The notes under the pieces are model-generated. The model did not search any database, was not told the origin of the DNA, and saw only the letters and a list, made by a program, of their open reading frames with translations. Made by a program: the position numbers and the translations under genes. Of a DNA stretch of 64,000 bases, positions 42,530 to 55,283 are shown in pieces. Source of the stretch: Yonghaparkia sp. Root332 (GTDB taxonomy: Bacteria; Actinomycetota; Actinomycetes; Actinomycetales; Microbacteriaceae); NCBI RefSeq assembly GCF_001425665.1, contig NZ_LMCX01000001.1:652623-716622 (forward strand), given 5' to 3'. Position 1 is the first letter of the stretch, and every line of letters starts with the position of its first letter.

Positions 42530-43711
42530 GTGAGCGAGCAGACCGTGCTGTCCCCCGAGCTCCTGCACGGCATCCGCGATCGCGCCCCCGACCACGACGC
42601 TCGCAACTCGTTCTTCTTCGACGACCTGACCGCGCTGCGCGAGGCCGGGTACCTCCGACCGCGCAGCCTCACGGCCGCGGCCCGCGACCAGCGGATGCTC
42701 GCCGCGCACGCTCCCGCGACGGCGCTCGGCATGACCATGCACCTGGTCTGGATGGGCGTCGCCCGCGACCTCGCCGCCGCCGGCGACGACAGCCTCGCGT
42801 GGGTCGCGCGCGACTGCGAGGCGGGCGAGCTCTTCGCCTTCGCGATCAGCGAGGCCGGCAACGACCGCGTCATGACCGACTCGGTGACGCGCGTCGACCG
42901 CGTGCCCGGTGCACCAGACGGCTCCGGCGCCGGCTGGTCGTTCACCGGCACGAAGATCATCACGAGCCTGAGCCCGGCGTGGACGAGGCTCGGCGTGCTC
43001 GGCCGTCACGACCCCGCCGACGCCGATCCCGCGATCGTCCACGGCTTCCTCCTGCGCGAATCCCCGGTCTCGACCCCCGACCGCCTCGAGCTGCACCCCG
43101 CACCCGGCATCGCGCTCACCCCCGACTGGGATTCGCTCGGCATGCGAGCGACCCAGAGCTGGACGACCCGGCTCGACGCGGCGTTCATCCCGGACGAGCG
43201 CGTGTCGCGCATCCTGCCCGTCGGCCCCACGCTCGACCCGTTCCTCCTCGCGATCTCGGCGAACTTCCTCACCCTCATGGCCGCCGTCTACGCCGGGCTC
43301 GCCGACCGCGCCCTCGAGCTCGCCGTCGAGTCCGCCCACCGGCGCACGAGCCTCAAGAACGGGGGAGCGCCCCAGTCGGCCGACCCCGACATCCGATGGC
43401 GGGTGGCGGATGCCGCGCTCGCGCTCGACGCGCTGGCCCCGCAGATCGAGGCCGTCTGCCGCGATCGCGACGCGGGTCTCGACCGGGGTGCGCGGTGGTT
43501 CCGCGACCTGGCGGGGCTCAAGCAGCGCGCCGTCGTCACCGCGCGCGAGGTCGTCGACCAGTGCATGCACATCGCCGGGGGTGGGGCCTATCGCGCGGGC
43601 GACGAGCTCAGCCGCCTGCAGCGCGACGTGCTCGCCGGCATCTACCACCCGAGCGACCCGGAGAGCGTGCACGCGACGGTCGCGGCCGACCTGCTGGGGC
43701 CGCTGCCGTGA
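42530..43711 (+). CDS. Acyl-CoA dehydrogenase-family flavoprotein
   Basis: A 393-residue protein with the three-domain ACAD plan: an N-terminal helical region, a central beta domain (FAISEAGNDRV, WSFTGTKIITSLSPAW, LGMRATQSWT), and a C-terminal helical domain with VDQCMHIAGGGAYRAGDELSRLQRD. The GAYRAGDELSRLQRD end is like the hydroxylase/desulfurisation branch, so the true substrate may not be an acyl-CoA. The GTG has TAGCCT six bases upstream (leaderless). It overlaps the Nudix gene by four bases. Confidence 0.83.
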   Translation: MSEQTVLSPELLHGIRDRAPDHDARNSFFFDDLTALREAGYLRPRSLTAAARDQRMLAAHAPATALGMTMHLVWMGVARDLAAAGDDSLAWVARDCEAGELFAFAISEAGNDRVMTDSVTRVDRVPGAPDGSGAGWSFTGTKIITSLSPAWTRLGVLGRHDPADADPAIVHGFLLRESPVSTPDRLELHPAPGIALTPDWDSLGMRATQSWTTRLDAAFIPDERVSRILPVGPTLDPFLLAISANFLTLMAAVYAGLADRALELAVESAHRRTSLKNGGAPQSADPDIRWRVADAALALDALAPQIEAVCRDRDAGLDRGARWFRDLAGLKQRAVVTAREVVDQCMHIAGGGAYRAGDELSRLQRDVLAGIYHPSDPESVHATVAADLLGPLP

Positions 43712-49146: not shown

Positions 49147-50262
49147 CTAGAAGAGTGTGGGCGCGGGCTCCGGCGCTCGCTCAGCGCGAGTCAAAAGGGA
49201 GAAGAACGTGCGGTTGATGAAGACGAGGCTTCTGCCGGCCTTGACGGAGATGAGAACCTCGGCCTCGGTCAGGATCTTGAGCCACTTTGTCGCCGTCGGT
49301 CGCGTGACGTCGCATCTCTCCATGACCGTCGTGATCCGGCAGTAGGGCTGCTCGAACAGCACGTCCAGAAGGTCCGCGTTCGCTCCACTGGGGAGCACGG
49401 CCCGCAGTTCCCCCTGCATCTCGCGATAGAGCGCCTGGATATCGTCGATCTTCTCAATCGTCGAAAGAGCGGTCTGCCGAATACCTTCCAGCATGAACTC
49501 GACCCAGTCCTCCCATGCCGCCTCGGCGGTCACGGCGAGAAGCAGCCGGTAGTACTCCGCCTTGTTCTGGACGATGTAGCGAGAGAGGTACAGGATCGGC
49601 TCGCTCAGCAGCCCACGGTCGATGAGAAGAAGGATGTTGACAATCCGTCCAGTACGCCCGTTGCCGTCCGAGAACGGGTTGATTGCTTCGAATTGATAGT
49701 GAGCAAGCGCCATGACGACGAGCGGATCGAGGGCGGTCGAGGTGTGGACGAAGCGCGCCCACGCATCCAACCGCTCCATGAGGAGGCGCTGGCCATCGGG
49801 AGGTGTATAGATCGCCTCGCGGGTGGCCGGATTTCCGATGAACGTCCCCGGAAGGTCTCTCACCCTCATCTCGCGGGCCTGAAGGGTGGAGCAGATGGTG
49901 ATCAACGTCGTCGCCGACAGTGGTCTATCACGAACTCTGCGAACTCCGTCGAGCAGCGCCACGCGGTATCGGAGCGCTTCCTTCGCCTCGGGTCGCGTCG
50001 AATCCTCGTCGAGCTGATCGGCCGCGAAGAGTTCGTCGGCGGTTGTGACGATGTTCTCGATCTCAGAGCTCGCCTGCGCTTCGAGAAGTGGAATGGAGTT
50101 GAGCAGAACCCTCGGGTTCGGGATGCGTCGAGCCGCCTGGTCGAGCGAGGCAAGAGCGGCTCTCGCCTCTGCGACCTGCTTGAGGATGCGCTTTGACTCG
50201 ACATCGATCGGCGGAGGCAGATCCGGCAGATCGTTGTAGGGGCTGTTCGGCGTCCAGACCAT
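49147..50262 (-). CDS. Class II Fic-family protein with an Asn in place of the catalytic His
   Basis: A 371-residue protein: an N-terminal Fic/DOC extension, the inhibitory helix motif SSEIEN (65-70, with Glu69), the Fic core, and a C-terminal winged helix (ITTVMERCDVTRPTATKWLKIL, about 302-330). Fic proteins transfer AMP to target hydroxyls using His of HPFxDGNGR; here the motif at 195-203 reads NPFSDGNGR, so the general base is Asn195. All phosphate-binding residues are kept. It may bind nucleotides without transferring AMP, or act in another way. GC is lower than in neighbours, suggesting acquisition. TAATCT lies six bases before the ATG (leaderless). Confidence 0.87.
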   Translation of the reverse strand: MVWTPNSPYNDLPDLPPPIDVESKRILKQVAEARAALASLDQAARRIPNPRVLLNSIPLLEAQASSEIENIVTTADELFAADQLDEDSTRPEAKEALRYRVALLDGVRRVRDRPLSATTLITICSTLQAREMRVRDLPGTFIGNPATREAIYTPPDGQRLLMERLDAWARFVHTSTALDPLVVMALAHYQFEAINPFSDGNGRTGRIVNILLLIDRGLLSEPILYLSRYIVQNKAEYYRLLLAVTAEAAWEDWVEFMLEGIRQTALSTIEKIDDIQALYREMQGELRAVLPSGANADLLDVLFEQPYCRITTVMERCDVTRPTATKWLKILTEAEVLISVKAGRSLVFINRTFFSLLTRAERAPEPAPTLF

Positions 50263-50410: not shown

Positions 50411-51103
50411 ATGAAGACGATCGGCCTCATCGGCGGCATGAGCTGGGAGAGCTCGGCGCTCTCGTACCGGCTCATCAACGAGGAGGTGCGCGACCGTCTC
50501 GGCGGCTTCCACTCGGCACGCGCCGTCATGACCTCGGTCGATTTCGCCGAGATCGAGGCGCTGCAGGCTGCCGACGACTGGGATGCCGCGGGAGCGGTCC
50601 TCGCGCGGGAGGCGCAGGCGCTCGAACGGGCGGGCGCAGAGCTCATCATGCTGTGCACGAACACCATGCACCTGGTCGCCGACCGCATCGAGAGCGCCGT
50701 CGACGTGCCCTTCCTCCACATCGCCGACGTGACGGCTGACGCGATCCAGGCCGGCGGTCAGCGCGCCGTCGGGCTGCTCGGCACCCGATTCACTATGGAG
50801 AAGGCCTTCTACCGCGAGCGCCTGGAGGCGCGCGGCATCACCGTGATCGTGCCCGAGGAGGGCGATCGCTCCGTCGTGCACGACATCATCTACGGCGAGC
50901 TCGTGCACGGCGTCGTGCGTCAGGAGTCGCGGCAGGCGTACCGCGAGGTCGTCGAGCGCCTCGTCGAGCGCGGAGCCGAGGGCGTCGTCCTCGGCTGCAC
51001 GGAGATCGAGCTGCTCGTCGGCGCCGACGATGTCGACGTCGCCGTCCACCCGACGACGCGCATCCAGGCCCGTGCGGCGGTCGCGGCGGCGCTCGCCGAC
51101 TGA
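50411..51103 (+). CDS. Aspartate/glutamate racemase family protein
   Basis: A 230-residue protein of the two-cysteine racemase type. IGLIGGMSWESSALSYRLIN at the N-terminus, Cys in MLCTNTMH and Cys in VLGCTEIELLV are the two catalytic cysteines, so both proton-transfer residues are present. It is closest to the broad-specificity YgeA/aspartate racemase branch. TAGCGT lies six bases before the ATG. A separate unit from the cluster that follows. Confidence 0.87.
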   Translation: MKTIGLIGGMSWESSALSYRLINEEVRDRLGGFHSARAVMTSVDFAEIEALQAADDWDAAGAVLAREAQALERAGAELIMLCTNTMHLVADRIESAVDVPFLHIADVTADAIQAGGQRAVGLLGTRFTMEKAFYRERLEARGITVIVPEEGDRSVVHDIIYGELVHGVVRQESRQAYREVVERLVERGAEGVVLGCTEIELLVGADDVDVAVHPTTRIQARAAVAAALAD

Positions 51104-51157: not shown

Positions 51158-52240
51158 ATGCGTGTCCGCCTGGCCTCCGACCCCGCGTCCCGCGCGCCAG
51201 GGCCCCGCACGTTGCTCGCCGAGCGGCTCGCTCCGCGCTCGGTGCCCGACGCGATCGACACGGCGCGCGACCTCGGTGCGCTCGATGTCGGCGCGGATGC
51301 CCGCGAACGGTCAGCCGGTCCGGCGCCGGCCTCGGCGGGCGACGCGCTGCTCGACCGGTGGGAGGCGCTCGCGACGCTCGGGGCCGTCGACCTCGGCGCG
51401 GCGCGGGTCGTTGAGCCGCACCTCGATGCGCTGAGCATCCTCGCCGAGGCCAAGGCGACCGCGACCGCCGATGCCGGGTCCCTCGACCGCGACCCCGCCG
51501 CCGTCTGGGGCGTCTTCGCGGCGGAGGGCGGCGACGAGCCCCTGCGCGCGCGGCCGACCGCCCACGGCTGGAGGCTCGACGGGGTGAAGCCGTGGTGCTC
51601 GCTCGCGGGCATCCTCGATCGCGCCCTTGTGACCGCCCACCTCGACGACGCGGGCACCCGGCGCCTCTTCGCCGTCGACCTGCGCGCCCCCGGCGTCGCG
51701 GTCGCCGAGGGAGCCTGGGCGGCACGCGGGCTGAGCGAGATCCCGAGCGGGCCGGTGCGCTTCGCCGACGTCGCGGCCGAGCCCGTCGGCGCCGACGGCT
51801 GGTACCTGCAGCGGCCCGGCTTCGCGATCGGCGGCACGGGCGTCGCCGCGTGCTGGTTCGGCGGCGCGGTCGGTCTCGCCCGCTCCCTGCATTCGGCACT
51901 TGCCGCCCGCGCGGACGCTCACGGTCTTGCGCATCTCGGCGCGATCGACGAGCAGCTCGAGGCCGCCCGCCTCGTCCTCGCCGACGCGGCCCGCCGCGCC
52001 CCCGGAGCCGACCGCGCGACGGCGCGCATCCTCGCCAAGCGCGTGCGCGCGACCGTCGCCCGCACGTGCGACGACGTGCTCGCCCGCACTGCCCGCGCGC
52101 TCGGCCCCGCCCCGCTCGCCCTCGACGCCGAGCACGCCAAGCGCGTCGCCGACCTCCAGCTCTACGTGCGCCAGCACCACGCCGAGCGCGACCTCGCCTC
52201 CCTCGGCGAGGCGCTGACCGCGAGCGAGGCGCCATGGTGA
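51158..52240 (+). CDS. Divergent acyl-CoA dehydrogenase homologue (first gene of unknown cluster)
   Basis: A 360-residue protein with a recognisable ACAD plan but divergent sequence. It has a short N-terminus, the central beta-domain strands GWRLDGVKPWCSLAG and GLSEIPSGPVRFADV, and a C-terminal helical domain ending in ADLQLYVRQHHAERDLASLG. The usual catalytic glutamate position is not clear. It probably oxidises or reduces a carrier- or CoA-bound intermediate. TACCGT lies six bases before the ATG. Its end overlaps the PIG-L/methyltransferase gene by seven bases, so the two products are made together. Confidence 0.8.
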   Translation: MRVRLASDPASRAPGPRTLLAERLAPRSVPDAIDTARDLGALDVGADARERSAGPAPASAGDALLDRWEALATLGAVDLGAARVVEPHLDALSILAEAKATATADAGSLDRDPAAVWGVFAAEGGDEPLRARPTAHGWRLDGVKPWCSLAGILDRALVTAHLDDAGTRRLFAVDLRAPGVAVAEGAWAARGLSEIPSGPVRFADVAAEPVGADGWYLQRPGFAIGGTGVAACWFGGAVGLARSLHSALAARADAHGLAHLGAIDEQLEAARLVLADAARRAPGADRATARILAKRVRATVARTCDDVLARTARALGPAPLALDAEHAKRVADLQLYVRQHHAERDLASLGEALTASEAPW

Positions 52241-53619
52241 CGTTCGATGCGGCGGCCCCCGGCACGAGCGCGGCCGTGTGGGCGGCGGATGCCCGGACCC
52301 ACGATCGTCCGCCCCTCGACCTCGACGGCGCGACCGCCCTCGTCGTCATCGCCGCGCACCCCGACGACGAGACGCTCGGCGCCGGCGGGCTCATCGCTAC
52401 GTGCGCGGAGCGCGGCCTGCCCGTGACGGTCGTCGTCGTGACCGACGGCGCCGGGTCGCACCCCGACGACGCGCGCATCGGGCGTCGACGCGCGGGCGAG
52501 CTGCTCGTAGCGCTCGACCTGCTCGGGGTGACGACGGCGCCCGTGCTGCTGGGGTTCCCGGACGGGGGGACGCGCGAGCACCGCGAGGGGATCGCGGCGG
52601 CGCTCGCCGCGGTGCTCGAAGCGGTCGTCAGAGAGGAGCCCGACGGCACGACGGCCGGCGCGCCCGGCCGCATCCTCGTCGCCGCGCCCTGGACGGGCGA
52701 CGGCCACCGCGACCACCGCGTCGTCGGCGAGATCGTGCGCGAGCTCGTCGCGCGCGACGCCGCCTGGCTGACGCTGCTCGCCTACCCGATCTGGATGCGC
52801 CACTGGGCCGACCCCGACCACGCCGCGGTGCCGTGGGAGTCGATGCGCGCGCTGGCGATCGACGCGCGCCGCAAGTCGGCCGCGATCGACGCGCACTCCT
52901 CGCAGCACGCGGGGGAGGAGCCGATGCTGCACGCGCGGTTCCTCGAGAACTTCCGAGGGGGCATCGAGCTGTTCGTGGTGGAGGAGGCCGCGCCCGCCGC
53001 CGCCCCGCCCGCGGCCCCGCTCGGCGCCGACTACTTCGACGCCCTCTACGCCCGCCGCGACGACCCGTGGCGGCTCGCCTCGCGCTGGTACGAGCGGCGC
53101 AAGCGCGACGCGACGATGGCTGTTCTGCCCGCCGAGCGGTACTCCTCGGCGCTCGAGATCGGCTGCTCGATCGGGCTGCTGACCGAGCGCCTCGCCGAGC
53201 GGTGCGACGCGCTGCTCGCCGTCGACATCGCCGAGGAGGCCGTCGCCCTCGCCCGACGGCGGCTCGCCCACCACGCGTCGTCCGCCGCCGTCCGCATCGA
53301 GCATCGCGACGCCCTCCGCGCCCTCCCCGACGGCGTGTTCGACCTCATCGTGCTCTCCGAGGTCGGCTACTACGCCGACCTCGACGCCCTCGACCGGCTC
53401 GTGGTCGCGATCGAGGCCGCGCTGCACCCGGCTGGAGCGCTCGTCGCCTGCCACTGGCGGCATCCCGTCGCCGACTACCCGCTGCGGGGCGACGACGTGC
53501 ACGCGCGCCTCGCACGGTCGTCGCTCGAGCGAACGGTCAGTCACGTCGAACGCGACTTCGTGCTCGAGGTGTACGCGCGCGACGGCCGCTCGGTCGCCGA
53601 GCGCGAGGGGCTCGCATGA
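52234..53619 (+). CDS. PIG-L deacetylase fused to a class I SAM methyltransferase
   Basis: A 461-residue two-domain protein. Residues 30-250 are a PIG-L/LmbE-type Zn deacetylase with AHPDDE at 41-46 and the third Zn ligand in DGHRDH (156-161); such enzymes remove N-acetyl groups from GlcNAc-containing metabolites. A Pro/Ala linker (about 252-264) leads to a NodS-like methyltransferase: ALEIGCSIG (306-314, SAM motif I), VDIAEEAV (330-337) and DLIVLSEVGYY (motif IV). The fusion implies that deacetylation and methylation act on the same molecule. It overlaps both neighbours and is co-translated with the ACAD homologue and the glycosyltransferase. Confidence 0.87.
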   Translation: MVTFDAAAPGTSAAVWAADARTHDRPPLDLDGATALVVIAAHPDDETLGAGGLIATCAERGLPVTVVVVTDGAGSHPDDARIGRRRAGELLVALDLLGVTTAPVLLGFPDGGTREHREGIAAALAAVLEAVVREEPDGTTAGAPGRILVAAPWTGDGHRDHRVVGEIVRELVARDAAWLTLLAYPIWMRHWADPDHAAVPWESMRALAIDARRKSAAIDAHSSQHAGEEPMLHARFLENFRGGIELFVVEEAAPAAAPPAAPLGADYFDALYARRDDPWRLASRWYERRKRDATMAVLPAERYSSALEIGCSIGLLTERLAERCDALLAVDIAEEAVALARRRLAHHASSAAVRIEHRDALRALPDGVFDLIVLSEVGYYADLDALDRLVVAIEAALHPAGALVACHWRHPVADYPLRGDDVHARLARSSLERTVSHVERDFVLEVYARDGRSVAEREGLA

Positions 53620-54281
53620 GCATCGGCGTCGTCATCCCGGCCCGCGACGAGGAGGATCTCATCGGCGACTGCCTCGCCTCGATCGCGCGGGCTTCCGCGC
53701 TCGTGACGGTTCCCGTCGTGGTCGTCGTCGTGGCAGACGGATGCTCGGACTCGACCACCGACGTCGCGCGCGGGTTCGCCGGGGTCGAGGTCGTCGAGCT
53801 CGCGCCCGTCGGCGTCGGCCTCGCGCGAGCGCGGGGTGTCTCGGCCGTGCTCGACCGTGGCGCCCAGTGGATCTCCTGCACCGACGCCGACTCGACCGTG
53901 CCCGAGAACTGGCTCGCCGAGCAGTGGCGGCTGCACCGCGAGGGTCGCGCGCTCATGATCGGCACCGTGCGACCGCGCTTCGCGGAGCTCTCGCCCGCGC
54001 ACGTCGCCCACTGGACGGCGACGCACCGCCGGGGCTTCCCGAACGGGCACGTGCACGGTGCGAACCTCGGGGTCTCGGCGGCCGCGTACCGCGCGGCGGG
54101 CGGCTTCGCCGGGCTCGACGAGCACGAGGACGTCGACCTCGTCGCCCGGCTGCGCGCTCTCGGCGTCGACGAGGTCGCGAGCGACGCGTGCGAGGTCGAG
54201 ACCTCCGCGCGGTTCGACGGCCGCACCGCCGGCGGCTACGCGGGGCACCTGCGGCGCGTCGAGGCCGAGCTCGCCGGCTGA
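53616..54281 (+). CDS. Family 2 glycosyltransferase
   Basis: A 221-residue GT-A-fold enzyme: VVIPARDEEDLIGDCLASI for nucleotide-sugar binding, CTDADSTVPENWL with the metal-binding acidic pair, GANLGVSAAAYRAAGGF and the catalytic acidic HEDVDLVARL. There is no membrane helix, so it glycosylates a cytoplasmic acceptor. The ATG overlaps the stop of the deacetylase-methyltransferase gene (ATGA). Last gene of the three-gene cluster. Confidence 0.88.
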   Translation: MSIGVVIPARDEEDLIGDCLASIARASALVTVPVVVVVVADGCSDSTTDVARGFAGVEVVELAPVGVGLARARGVSAVLDRGAQWISCTDADSTVPENWLAEQWRLHREGRALMIGTVRPRFAELSPAHVAHWTATHRRGFPNGHVHGANLGVSAAAYRAAGGFAGLDEHEDVDLVARLRALGVDEVASDACEVETSARFDGRTAGGYAGHLRRVEAELAG

Positions 54282-54387: not shown

Positions 54388-54441
54388 ATGACCCCGACGA
54401 CGCGACGATGCGGCCGCGCGAGCACCGTGAGCGCGCGATGA
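54388..54441 (+). CDS. Possible 17-codon leader peptide before the aldo/keto reductase gene
   Basis: A tiny frame [17 protein letters not shown]. Its ATG has TACGGT six bases upstream, the same leaderless promoter geometry as many genes here. Its TGA overlaps the downstream ATG (ATGA at 54438). The downstream gene has no ribosome site, so translation may be handed over from this peptide. This is inference; it could equally be an untranslated leader. Confidence 0.35.
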   Translation: MTPTTRRCGRASTVSAR

Positions 54442-55283
54442 CGCGATTCTCGCTCCCGCCCGGCGGCGTCGTGCTCGGCGTCGCCTCCCTGGTGCTCAAG
54501 GAGGGCGCGACGATCGACGGGGCGCTCGAGGTCGTCCGCGCGGCCGTGGACGCGGGCGTGCGGGCGATCGACACCGCACGCGCCTATGCCACGGTCGACG
54601 ACGATGCCGCGGGAGAGCGCATCGCGCAGGCGGCGCGCGCGCAGGCCCCGGGCATCCCCATCATCACGAAGGCCGGCCACTTCCGCGTCGCGCGGGCGGC
54701 GTGGGATGTCGACGGGTCGCCCGAGCGCGTCCGGGCCGACGCGCTGCGCAGCCGCGAGGTGCTCGGCGCCCCGCCGTCCCTGCTGCTGCTGCACCGCGCC
54801 GACCGCGTCGACGACATCGACGCGTCGGTGCGCGAGCTGGCCGCCCTGCGCGAGGAGGGGGTGGTCGAGGCGATCGGCCTCTCGAACGCCTCGGTCGAGC
54901 TGCTCGACCGCGCCCGGGCGATCGCCGAGATCGACGCGGTGGAGAACCGCTTCGGCTTCGGCGTCGACCCGGCGACCGAGTACCGCTACTGCGTCGAGGC
55001 GGGCATCCCCTTCCTCGCCTACGCGCCGTTCGGCGGGCCCAAGGCCGAGCCGCTCGCGACCCGCGTGCCCCGCGTCGCCGCCGCCGCGACGGCGCACGGC
55101 ACCTCGGTGCATCGTGCGGCGCTCGCCGCGATGCTCGACGCCATGCCCGGAGCGTGGCCCGTCATCGGCTCGACCCGCGTGGAGTCGGTGCTCGACTCGA
55201 TCGCCGCGTCGGCGCTCGCGGTCGACGACGACCTGCGCCGCGCGTTCGCGGAGGACCTGCGCTCGCGCGGGGTCGGGCTCTAG
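54438..55283 (+). CDS. Aldo/keto reductase family protein
   Basis: A 281-residue TIM-barrel NADPH oxidoreductase. [19 protein letters not shown] carries the catalytic Asp and Tyr, ITKAGHFR the lysine, LLLLHRAD the histidine, and [10 protein letters not shown] and [11 protein letters not shown] bind cofactor. It is shorter than most family members and resembles the L-fucose/D-threo-aldose dehydrogenase branch. Start at 54438 chosen by the ATGA coupling; an in-frame ATG at 54408 has no better signal. Converges on lldD with a four-base overlap. Confidence 0.83.

Follow-up and report, generated by a model that had tools for sequence, protein, structure and literature searches.

The core of Nod factors is modified by NodC, NodB and NodS, which bring together a GT2 glycosyltransferase, de-N-acetylation and a NodS-type N-methyltransferase. 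PIG-L deacetylases are represented in thiol biosynthesis by MshB (mycothiol) and BshB (bacillithiol), and the acyl-CoA dehydrogenase (ACAD) fold is also used by flavin monooxygenases such as DszC/TdsC, MsuC and DnmZ/KijD3/ORF36. Here we describe a cassette from a 64,000-nucleotide stretch of DNA of Yonghaparkia sp. Root332 (contig NZ_LMCX01000001.1, positions 652,623 to 716,622; in the following called the window), which encodes an ACAD-fold flavoprotein, a PIG-L deacetylase fused to a NodS-like methyltransferase and a small GT2 glycosyltransferase. It is a real and conserved pathway that, as far as open full texts go, is undescribed: within this scope no description of it was found, and the available parts of PMC12029717, PMC8982409, PMC6599016, PMC6372562, PMC8202526 and PMC10468529 do not mention it. 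The original prediction of a conserved neighbourhood without a named pathway agrees with this, as no pathway name was found.

We read the cassette as a four-function pathway to a small intracellular N-methylated amino-sugar glycoside that is made together with trehalose and stress functions, and we see about equal chances of this being right or wrong. The GT2 enzyme would transfer an N-acetylamino sugar, most likely N-acetylglucosamine, to an acceptor in the cytosol, the PIG-L domain would remove the N-acetyl group and the NodS-like domain would methylate the freed amine with S-adenosylmethionine (SAM). The ACAD-fold flavoprotein would oxidise the product or its amine; a role as acyl-CoA dehydrogenase is less likely for it than one as a monooxygenase supplied with reduced flavin. 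The product might be a protectant or stress metabolite. We infer the substrates, acceptor, product, order of steps, oxidation chemistry and physiological role, and this chemistry is the best-supported reading rather than a demonstration. What is observed directly is the gene structure and its conservation, candidate catalytic residues, linkage, an exchange of PIG-L for a NodB-like enzyme, the loss of a catalytic Glu and the operon context.

In order to see how widely the genes occur together, an ACAD alignment was run against the genomes of 84,980 species and the best 80 of at least 399 confirmed relatives were kept. All 80 loci belong to beta- and gammaproteobacteria, as was to be expected with a Pandoraea sequence at the head of the alignment, and 54 of them to Pseudomonas. 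With ACAD as the sole query, a NodS-like methyltransferase was found in 80, PIG-L in 74 and GT2 in 64 of these loci, with L049 as an exception where the ACAD gene is separated from all three by about 5.5 kb. After clustering of the neighbouring open reading frames (ORFs), only the four cassette families span at least 14 genera, plus one cluster that runs antisense to ACAD. Within the family of the window the fusion is matched at E ≤ 1e-30 in 52 of 150 genomes (its own included, counted by hand) and at E ≤ 1e-3 in 100, many of these being generic PIG-L or methyltransferase matches. The 19 best-match relatives (L003–L021) all have ACAD and GT2 beside the PIG-L/methyltransferase match. The genus is represented by two further genomes, of which G074 has the fusion and G137 lacks it, which makes this an accessory cassette. 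The genome of the window has two WhiB matches, a trait that only Corynebacterium showed among 14 control genomes, in line with an actinobacterium. A wider sample of the phylum contained the ACAD family in 31 of 296 genomes (E ≤ 1e-20), and in a survey of 29 Actinomycetota loci with 1.5-kb flanks we found the methyltransferase in 27, PIG-L in 11 and a NodB-like deacetylase in 16. Among plasmids, 106 of 72,556 records match the fusion, some of these matches covering a single half or being ordinary NodS. Matches to all four functions are present in regions from Kitasatospora, Deinococcus, Acinetobacter, Pandoraea, Bradyrhizobium, Sulfitobacter and Comamonas (with weak GT2 matches on the opposite strand in Deinococcus and Bradyrhizobium) as well as from Nostoc, with GT2 on the opposite strand, and Methylobacterium; in Legionella lytica the ACAD gene is present after GT2. 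The cassette thus spans at least four phyla, namely Actinomycetota, Pseudomonadota, Deinococcota and Cyanobacteriota, and the co-occurrence proposed earlier extends far outside close relatives. As it recurs in distant genomes from searches that did not ask for grouping, the grouping goes beyond chance.

The strongest sequence argument for de-N-acetylation of an amino sugar comes from loci in which PIG-L is swapped for an unrelated enzyme that is expected to catalyse the same reaction, at the same place. Sixteen of the 29 Actinomycetota survey loci (L162–L177, 15 from one family and 1 from another) gave no PIG-L, and all 16 carry a polysaccharide deacetylase 5' of ACAD. The four replacement deacetylases scanned with Pfam all contain PF01522, and for one of them the best NCBIfam model is NodB with 112 bits, under the 240-bit cut-off. 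In 15 of these loci an NAD(P)H-type reductase of the ferredoxin-reductase kind stands 3' of the methyltransferase and the remaining locus stops at a contig end; that this gene is the partner of a monooxygenase is suggestive only. For gene order we compiled 152 locus entries, of which 145 are distinct as seven places were entered twice. The orders seen include ACAD-PIGL-MT-GT, GT-ACAD-PIGL-MT, GT-PIGL-ACAD-MT, ACAD-MT-PIGL, MT-PIGL-ACAD, MT-ACAD-GT and PIGL-MT-GT-ACAD (MT, methyltransferase; GT, glycosyltransferase), and in two short-flanked entries no methyltransferase is seen. PIG-L and methyltransferase share a single frame in 20 of 21 window-family loci and in L149 and are separate in 99 other entries, a fusion as expected for neighbouring pathway steps. 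ACAD and PIG-L genes overlap in 64 of 74 loci under a most-upstream-start rule that favours overlaps. Taken together, the NodS-like methyltransferase, the NodB-like swap and the fusion support indirectly the de-N-acetylation and N-methylation behind the N-methylated amino-sugar product of the original prediction. On two Deinococcus plasmids (L023:3572-5935 and L146:3698-5947) ACAD is extended at its N-terminus by a domain similar to an adjacent GH1-like protein (E 1e-17), a fusion that points to a glycoside; this domain has no match among PDB sequences. A gene for UDP-galactopyranose mutase lies near the cassette of L023, and in 35 loci (within L043–L099, seen in Pseudomonas) a second PIG-L gene follows 3' of the cassette.

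The context of genes for trehalose, a sugar that protects from drought, was analyzed with five gene queries (including glgX, treY, malQ, otsA and otsB). From the 80 best loci 53 were positive, 48 with glgX (46 also with treY and malQ) and 5 with otsA (4 also with otsB), and adding seven plasmid loci gives 55 of 87. The distance from the glgX stop to the ACAD start is −26 to +2 nt in 47 of the 48 loci, with starts taken by the same rule and no value for L075, and in the five otsA loci ACAD lies −4 to 109 nt 3' of otsA. In Pseudomonas syringae the treY/Z operon is described as PSPTO3125–3130 and ends in glgX (PMC8982409, part of the text), and the cassette would follow this operon. In a P. fluorescens rpoS mutant the treY/Z operon is reported to be lowered, and the available part of this source lists no cassette genes (PMC6372562). 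Stress-related neighbours, which were judged by eye without a background count, are of several kinds. A Dps-type ferritin (PF00210) adjoins the cassette in 6 of the 20 relatives, and Deinococcus also has a Dps close to it. Sulfitobacter, Cupriavidus, Novosphingobium and Sphingobium have a catalase near the cassette, Bradyrhizobium and Novosphingobium a LigD, Pandoraea has CsbD and YqjD, and Legionella lytica otsB with a GH65 protein 5' of it. No such stress or trehalose neighbour is present among the ORFs listed for the window. The sphingomonad plasmids L143 and L147 have three extra glycosyltransferase genes and a catalase gene 5' of the cassette. Neither the trehalose and stress-gene link nor an ACAD protein without the usual catalytic Glu had been foreseen by the original prediction.

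The ACAD protein of the window is modelled with a complete ACAD fold (pLDDT, the predicted local distance difference test score, of 93.0). At the column of the catalytic Glu (EGT motif) all 55 family members used have a Gln, whereas all four ordinary ACADs taken from this genome have Glu. A profile search against the PDB gave TdsC (8.5e-13), ColB1 (6.9e-11) and DszC (6.6e-10), then ACADs, MsuC and the nitrososynthases KijD3 (5.6e-8), DnmZ (1.5e-6) and ORF36 (2.6e-4), and the top Foldseek match of the model is DnmZ (7.1e-13). S148 lies opposite S163 of DszC when counted by hand along the hidden Markov model (HMM) alignment. H88 was considered as counterpart of the catalytic His92 of DszC and rejected, since the same alignment sets it opposite H97; the roles of the DszC residues aligned to H88 and S148 are presumed. 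From sequence and model we read the ACAD-fold protein as oxygenase-like, which is unproven.

The methyltransferase half is structurally closest to NodS (3ofk, Z 25.0), followed by 4isc (Z 21.8, 50% identity) and other methyltransferases at Z 20.9 or below. It reaches 67.7 bits with the NCBIfam equivalog nod_mtase_NodS against a cut-off of 300, and by these scores it is best regarded as a relative of NodS and not as NodS itself. The putative methyltransferase 4isc from P. syringae is nearly identical to the cassette methyltransferase of Pseudomonas avellanae L055, which stands directly 3' of the trehalose operon, and 4isc therefore belongs to the cassette pathway. The PIG-L half is in its fold about equally near to BshB and to the archaeal diacetylchitobiose deacetylase, the latter being best in sequence, and the GT2 protein has no match among PDB sequences.

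In the window the three genes overlap as originally described, at the same coordinates and strand (Table 1). Pfam recognises PIG-L (PF02585, 81.4 bits, cut-off 28.2) and NodS (60.6 bits, cut-off 24) in the fusion and PF00535 in the GT2 protein (57.9 bits, cut-off 23.3). From the ACAD protein only the middle domain is found, with 31.7 bits slightly below the cut-off of 33.3, in keeping with its earlier description as divergent. NCBIfam cut-offs are reached by none of the three proteins. Conservation was assessed with the window and all locus sequences whose best match covers more than 70% of the query: H42, D44, D45, E46, H158 and H161 of PIG-L (AHPDDE and HxxH) are kept in 101 of 101, D90, D92, E171 and D172 of GT2 in 89 of 89 and S148 and Q339 of ACAD in 105 of 105 sequences, and we take their catalytic roles to be those of their families (for PIG-L those of MshB). 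The highest 19-residue hydropathy means of the three proteins are 1.47, 2.02 and 2.14, which we judge from these means to reflect buried helices or strands and not membrane helices.

Table 1: Coordinates of the cassette genes, their parts and overlaps in the window, and of the trifunctional proteins discussed in the text (positions within L140 and L141).
Feature	Position	Strand	Remarks
ACAD-fold flavoprotein, cassette gene 1	51158..52240	+	360 aa; Gln339 instead of the dehydrogenase catalytic Glu
PIG-L / NodS-like methyltransferase fusion	52234..53619	+	461 aa
PIG-L de-N-acetylase half, aa 1-252	52234..52989	+	H42, D44, D45, H158, H161 as metal-site/base residues; domain border placed by hand between the Pfam matches
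NodS-like SAM methyltransferase half, aa 253-461	52990..53619	+	structure of a close relative: 4isc
Small GT2 glycosyltransferase	53616..54281	+	221 aa; D90xD92, E171-D172
7-nt overlap of ACAD and fusion genes	52234..52240	+	
4-nt ATGA overlap of fusion and GT2 genes	53616..53619	+	
Trifunctional glycosyltransferase/methyltransferase/deacetylase proteins	L140:4402-7482; L141:3964-7440		

Two neighbours, an Asp/Glu racemase upstream (50411-51103) and an aldo/keto reductase downstream (54408-55283), were considered as parts of the cassette and rejected, as neither is in the ORF clusters recurring among 20 relatives. Further upstream a Fic protein with Fic_N and SoFic-like C-terminal domains is encoded (49147-50262, minus strand). 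The window also contains a second ACAD-fold protein (42530-43711, plus strand), a 393-aa ORF with a partial PF00441 match of 47.5 bits that ends in a YHPSDPES motif and may be another flavin monooxygenase-like protein. The ACAD match on an Acinetobacter soli plasmid (L024:5935-6959) and the GT2 match on a Pandoraea plasmid (L025:7259-7976) are each split into two overlapping frames, possibly by a broken gene or a sequencing error. Two records named 'Acinetobacter phage' (CAKLQF020000002.1 and CAKLQH020000004.1, 305 and 232 kb) carry PIG-L and methyltransferase genes resembling those of the Acinetobacter plasmids and are possibly mislabelled plasmids.

Several observations weigh against the proposed glycoside pathway. 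Of the 80 loci, 16 gave no GT2 and 6 no PIG-L, some contigs ending early, and PIG-L and NodS-like folds also act on other substrates. None of the five trehalose genes is present in 27 of the 80 loci, nor in the window, and Pseudomonas alone accounts for 47 of the 48 glgX loci, so that the linkage reflects few independent events. An EcfG motif lies at a fitting place in only one of six alphaproteobacterial cassettes (Paracoccus L145), in a search with 0.4–0.8 chance matches expected per locus. One special case of the proposed pathway, which we regard as unlikely, is that trehalose itself is the GT2 acceptor and is decorated with an N-methylated amino sugar. The position of the cassette directly 3' of the glgX of treYZ operons (48 loci) and of otsA (5 loci) as well as otsB and the GH65 protein of Legionella lytica would fit; the trehalose-free loci and the window would not, and shared regulation would explain the linkage equally well. 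Also the flavoprotein can be seen differently, as ordinary ACADs follow close behind in the PDB profile search, VIA-align scores dehydrogenases, TdsC and KijD3 alike at Z 31–32 with a dehydrogenase in the top row, and NCBIfam gives nothing beyond a weak desulfinase match (18.8 bits). A one-residue gap beside the Glu/Gln column leaves the exact register open, and some ACADs carry the catalytic Glu at another position. The protein might be a dehydrogenase of the ordinary kind, acting on acyl-CoA or an acyl carrier, in which case the product, for example a lipo-amino-sugar, would bear a modified acyl group. With its full ACAD fold, and with Nod factors as nearest analogue bearing an acyl chain on the same sugar, this has some appeal, and we still think it improbable given the Gln in all 55 members and the neighbourhoods, in which no family of acyltransferases is widespread (no profile search covered NodA).

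That the cassette modifies a surface polysaccharide or a lipid-linked sugar instead of a soluble metabolite is suggested by the weak similarity of GT2 to exopolysaccharide glycosyltransferases, the resemblance of the NodB-like enzyme also to peptidoglycan deacetylases, the three additional glycosyltransferases upstream in sphingomonads and the polysaccharide or export genes near the trifunctional protein in one of two records. As no membrane protein, flippase or exporter accompanies the four genes from genus to genus in the neighbour-ORF clusters, we consider this explanation doubtful and would not expect it to hold. A thiol pathway similar to that of mycothiol or bacillithiol, with the PIG-L domain in place of MshB or BshB, is extremely improbable even if this half resembles both enzymes in fold and sequence and is the sole PIG-L of the genome. 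The MshB model gives it 24.7 bits against a cut-off of 224, the BshB model is also far below its cut-off, and the genome has no MshC above the cut-off (269 against 485 bits, this match probably being the cysteinyl-tRNA synthetase); to our knowledge, methyltransferase and ACAD have no role in either pathway. We therefore reject such a role, and the genes do not resemble a mycothiol locus.

For the proposed glycoside pathway, the presence across phyla and the adjacency to trehalose genes in pseudomonads predict that common soil, plant-associated and clinical bacteria make a stress metabolite not yet described. In its most specific form this would be a new and widely shared soluble amino-sugar glycoside, possibly built on trehalose, with a de-N-acetylated amine that is methylated (perhaps to a betaine-like quaternary ammonium) and/or N-oxygenated by the ACAD-fold enzyme, which we offer as a tentative possibility and think less likely than not. 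The cassette joins anonymous annotations, namely PIG-L deacetylase, ACAD family protein, class I methyltransferase and the orphan structure 4isc, into one testable pathway and suggests that NodB/NodC/NodS-type chemistry is much wider than symbiosis.

In summary, the cassette comes closest to the modification of the Nod factor core, and 16 Actinomycetota cassettes even use a NodB-like deacetylase. In contrast to this system its deacetylase is usually PIG-L, from an unrelated family, its GT2 is a small, apparently soluble enzyme, it has an ACAD-fold flavoprotein in addition, and its neighbours are trehalose or stress and not symbiosis genes. With MshB and BshB it has the PIG-L fold and the metal-site residues in common, and differs in model scores, the lack of an MshC above the cut-off and the partner genes. 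The methyltransferase of 4isc is a separate gene, not fused as in the window, and its entry states no function. Trifunctional proteins from Gloeothece and Sulfitobacter indolifex combine by annotation glycosyltransferase, methyltransferase and polysaccharide deacetylase on one chain and match in the methyltransferase part, and neither record has ACAD or PIG-L annotated within 6 kb. Finally, the ACAD-fold flavin monooxygenases share the fold with the cassette protein, which is like them without the dehydrogenase Glu, but their identity to it is only about 20%, their partner genes are others and ordinary ACADs fit the fold equally well; a candidate flavin reductase, of the ferredoxin-reductase kind, is part of the cassette only in its NodB-type version.

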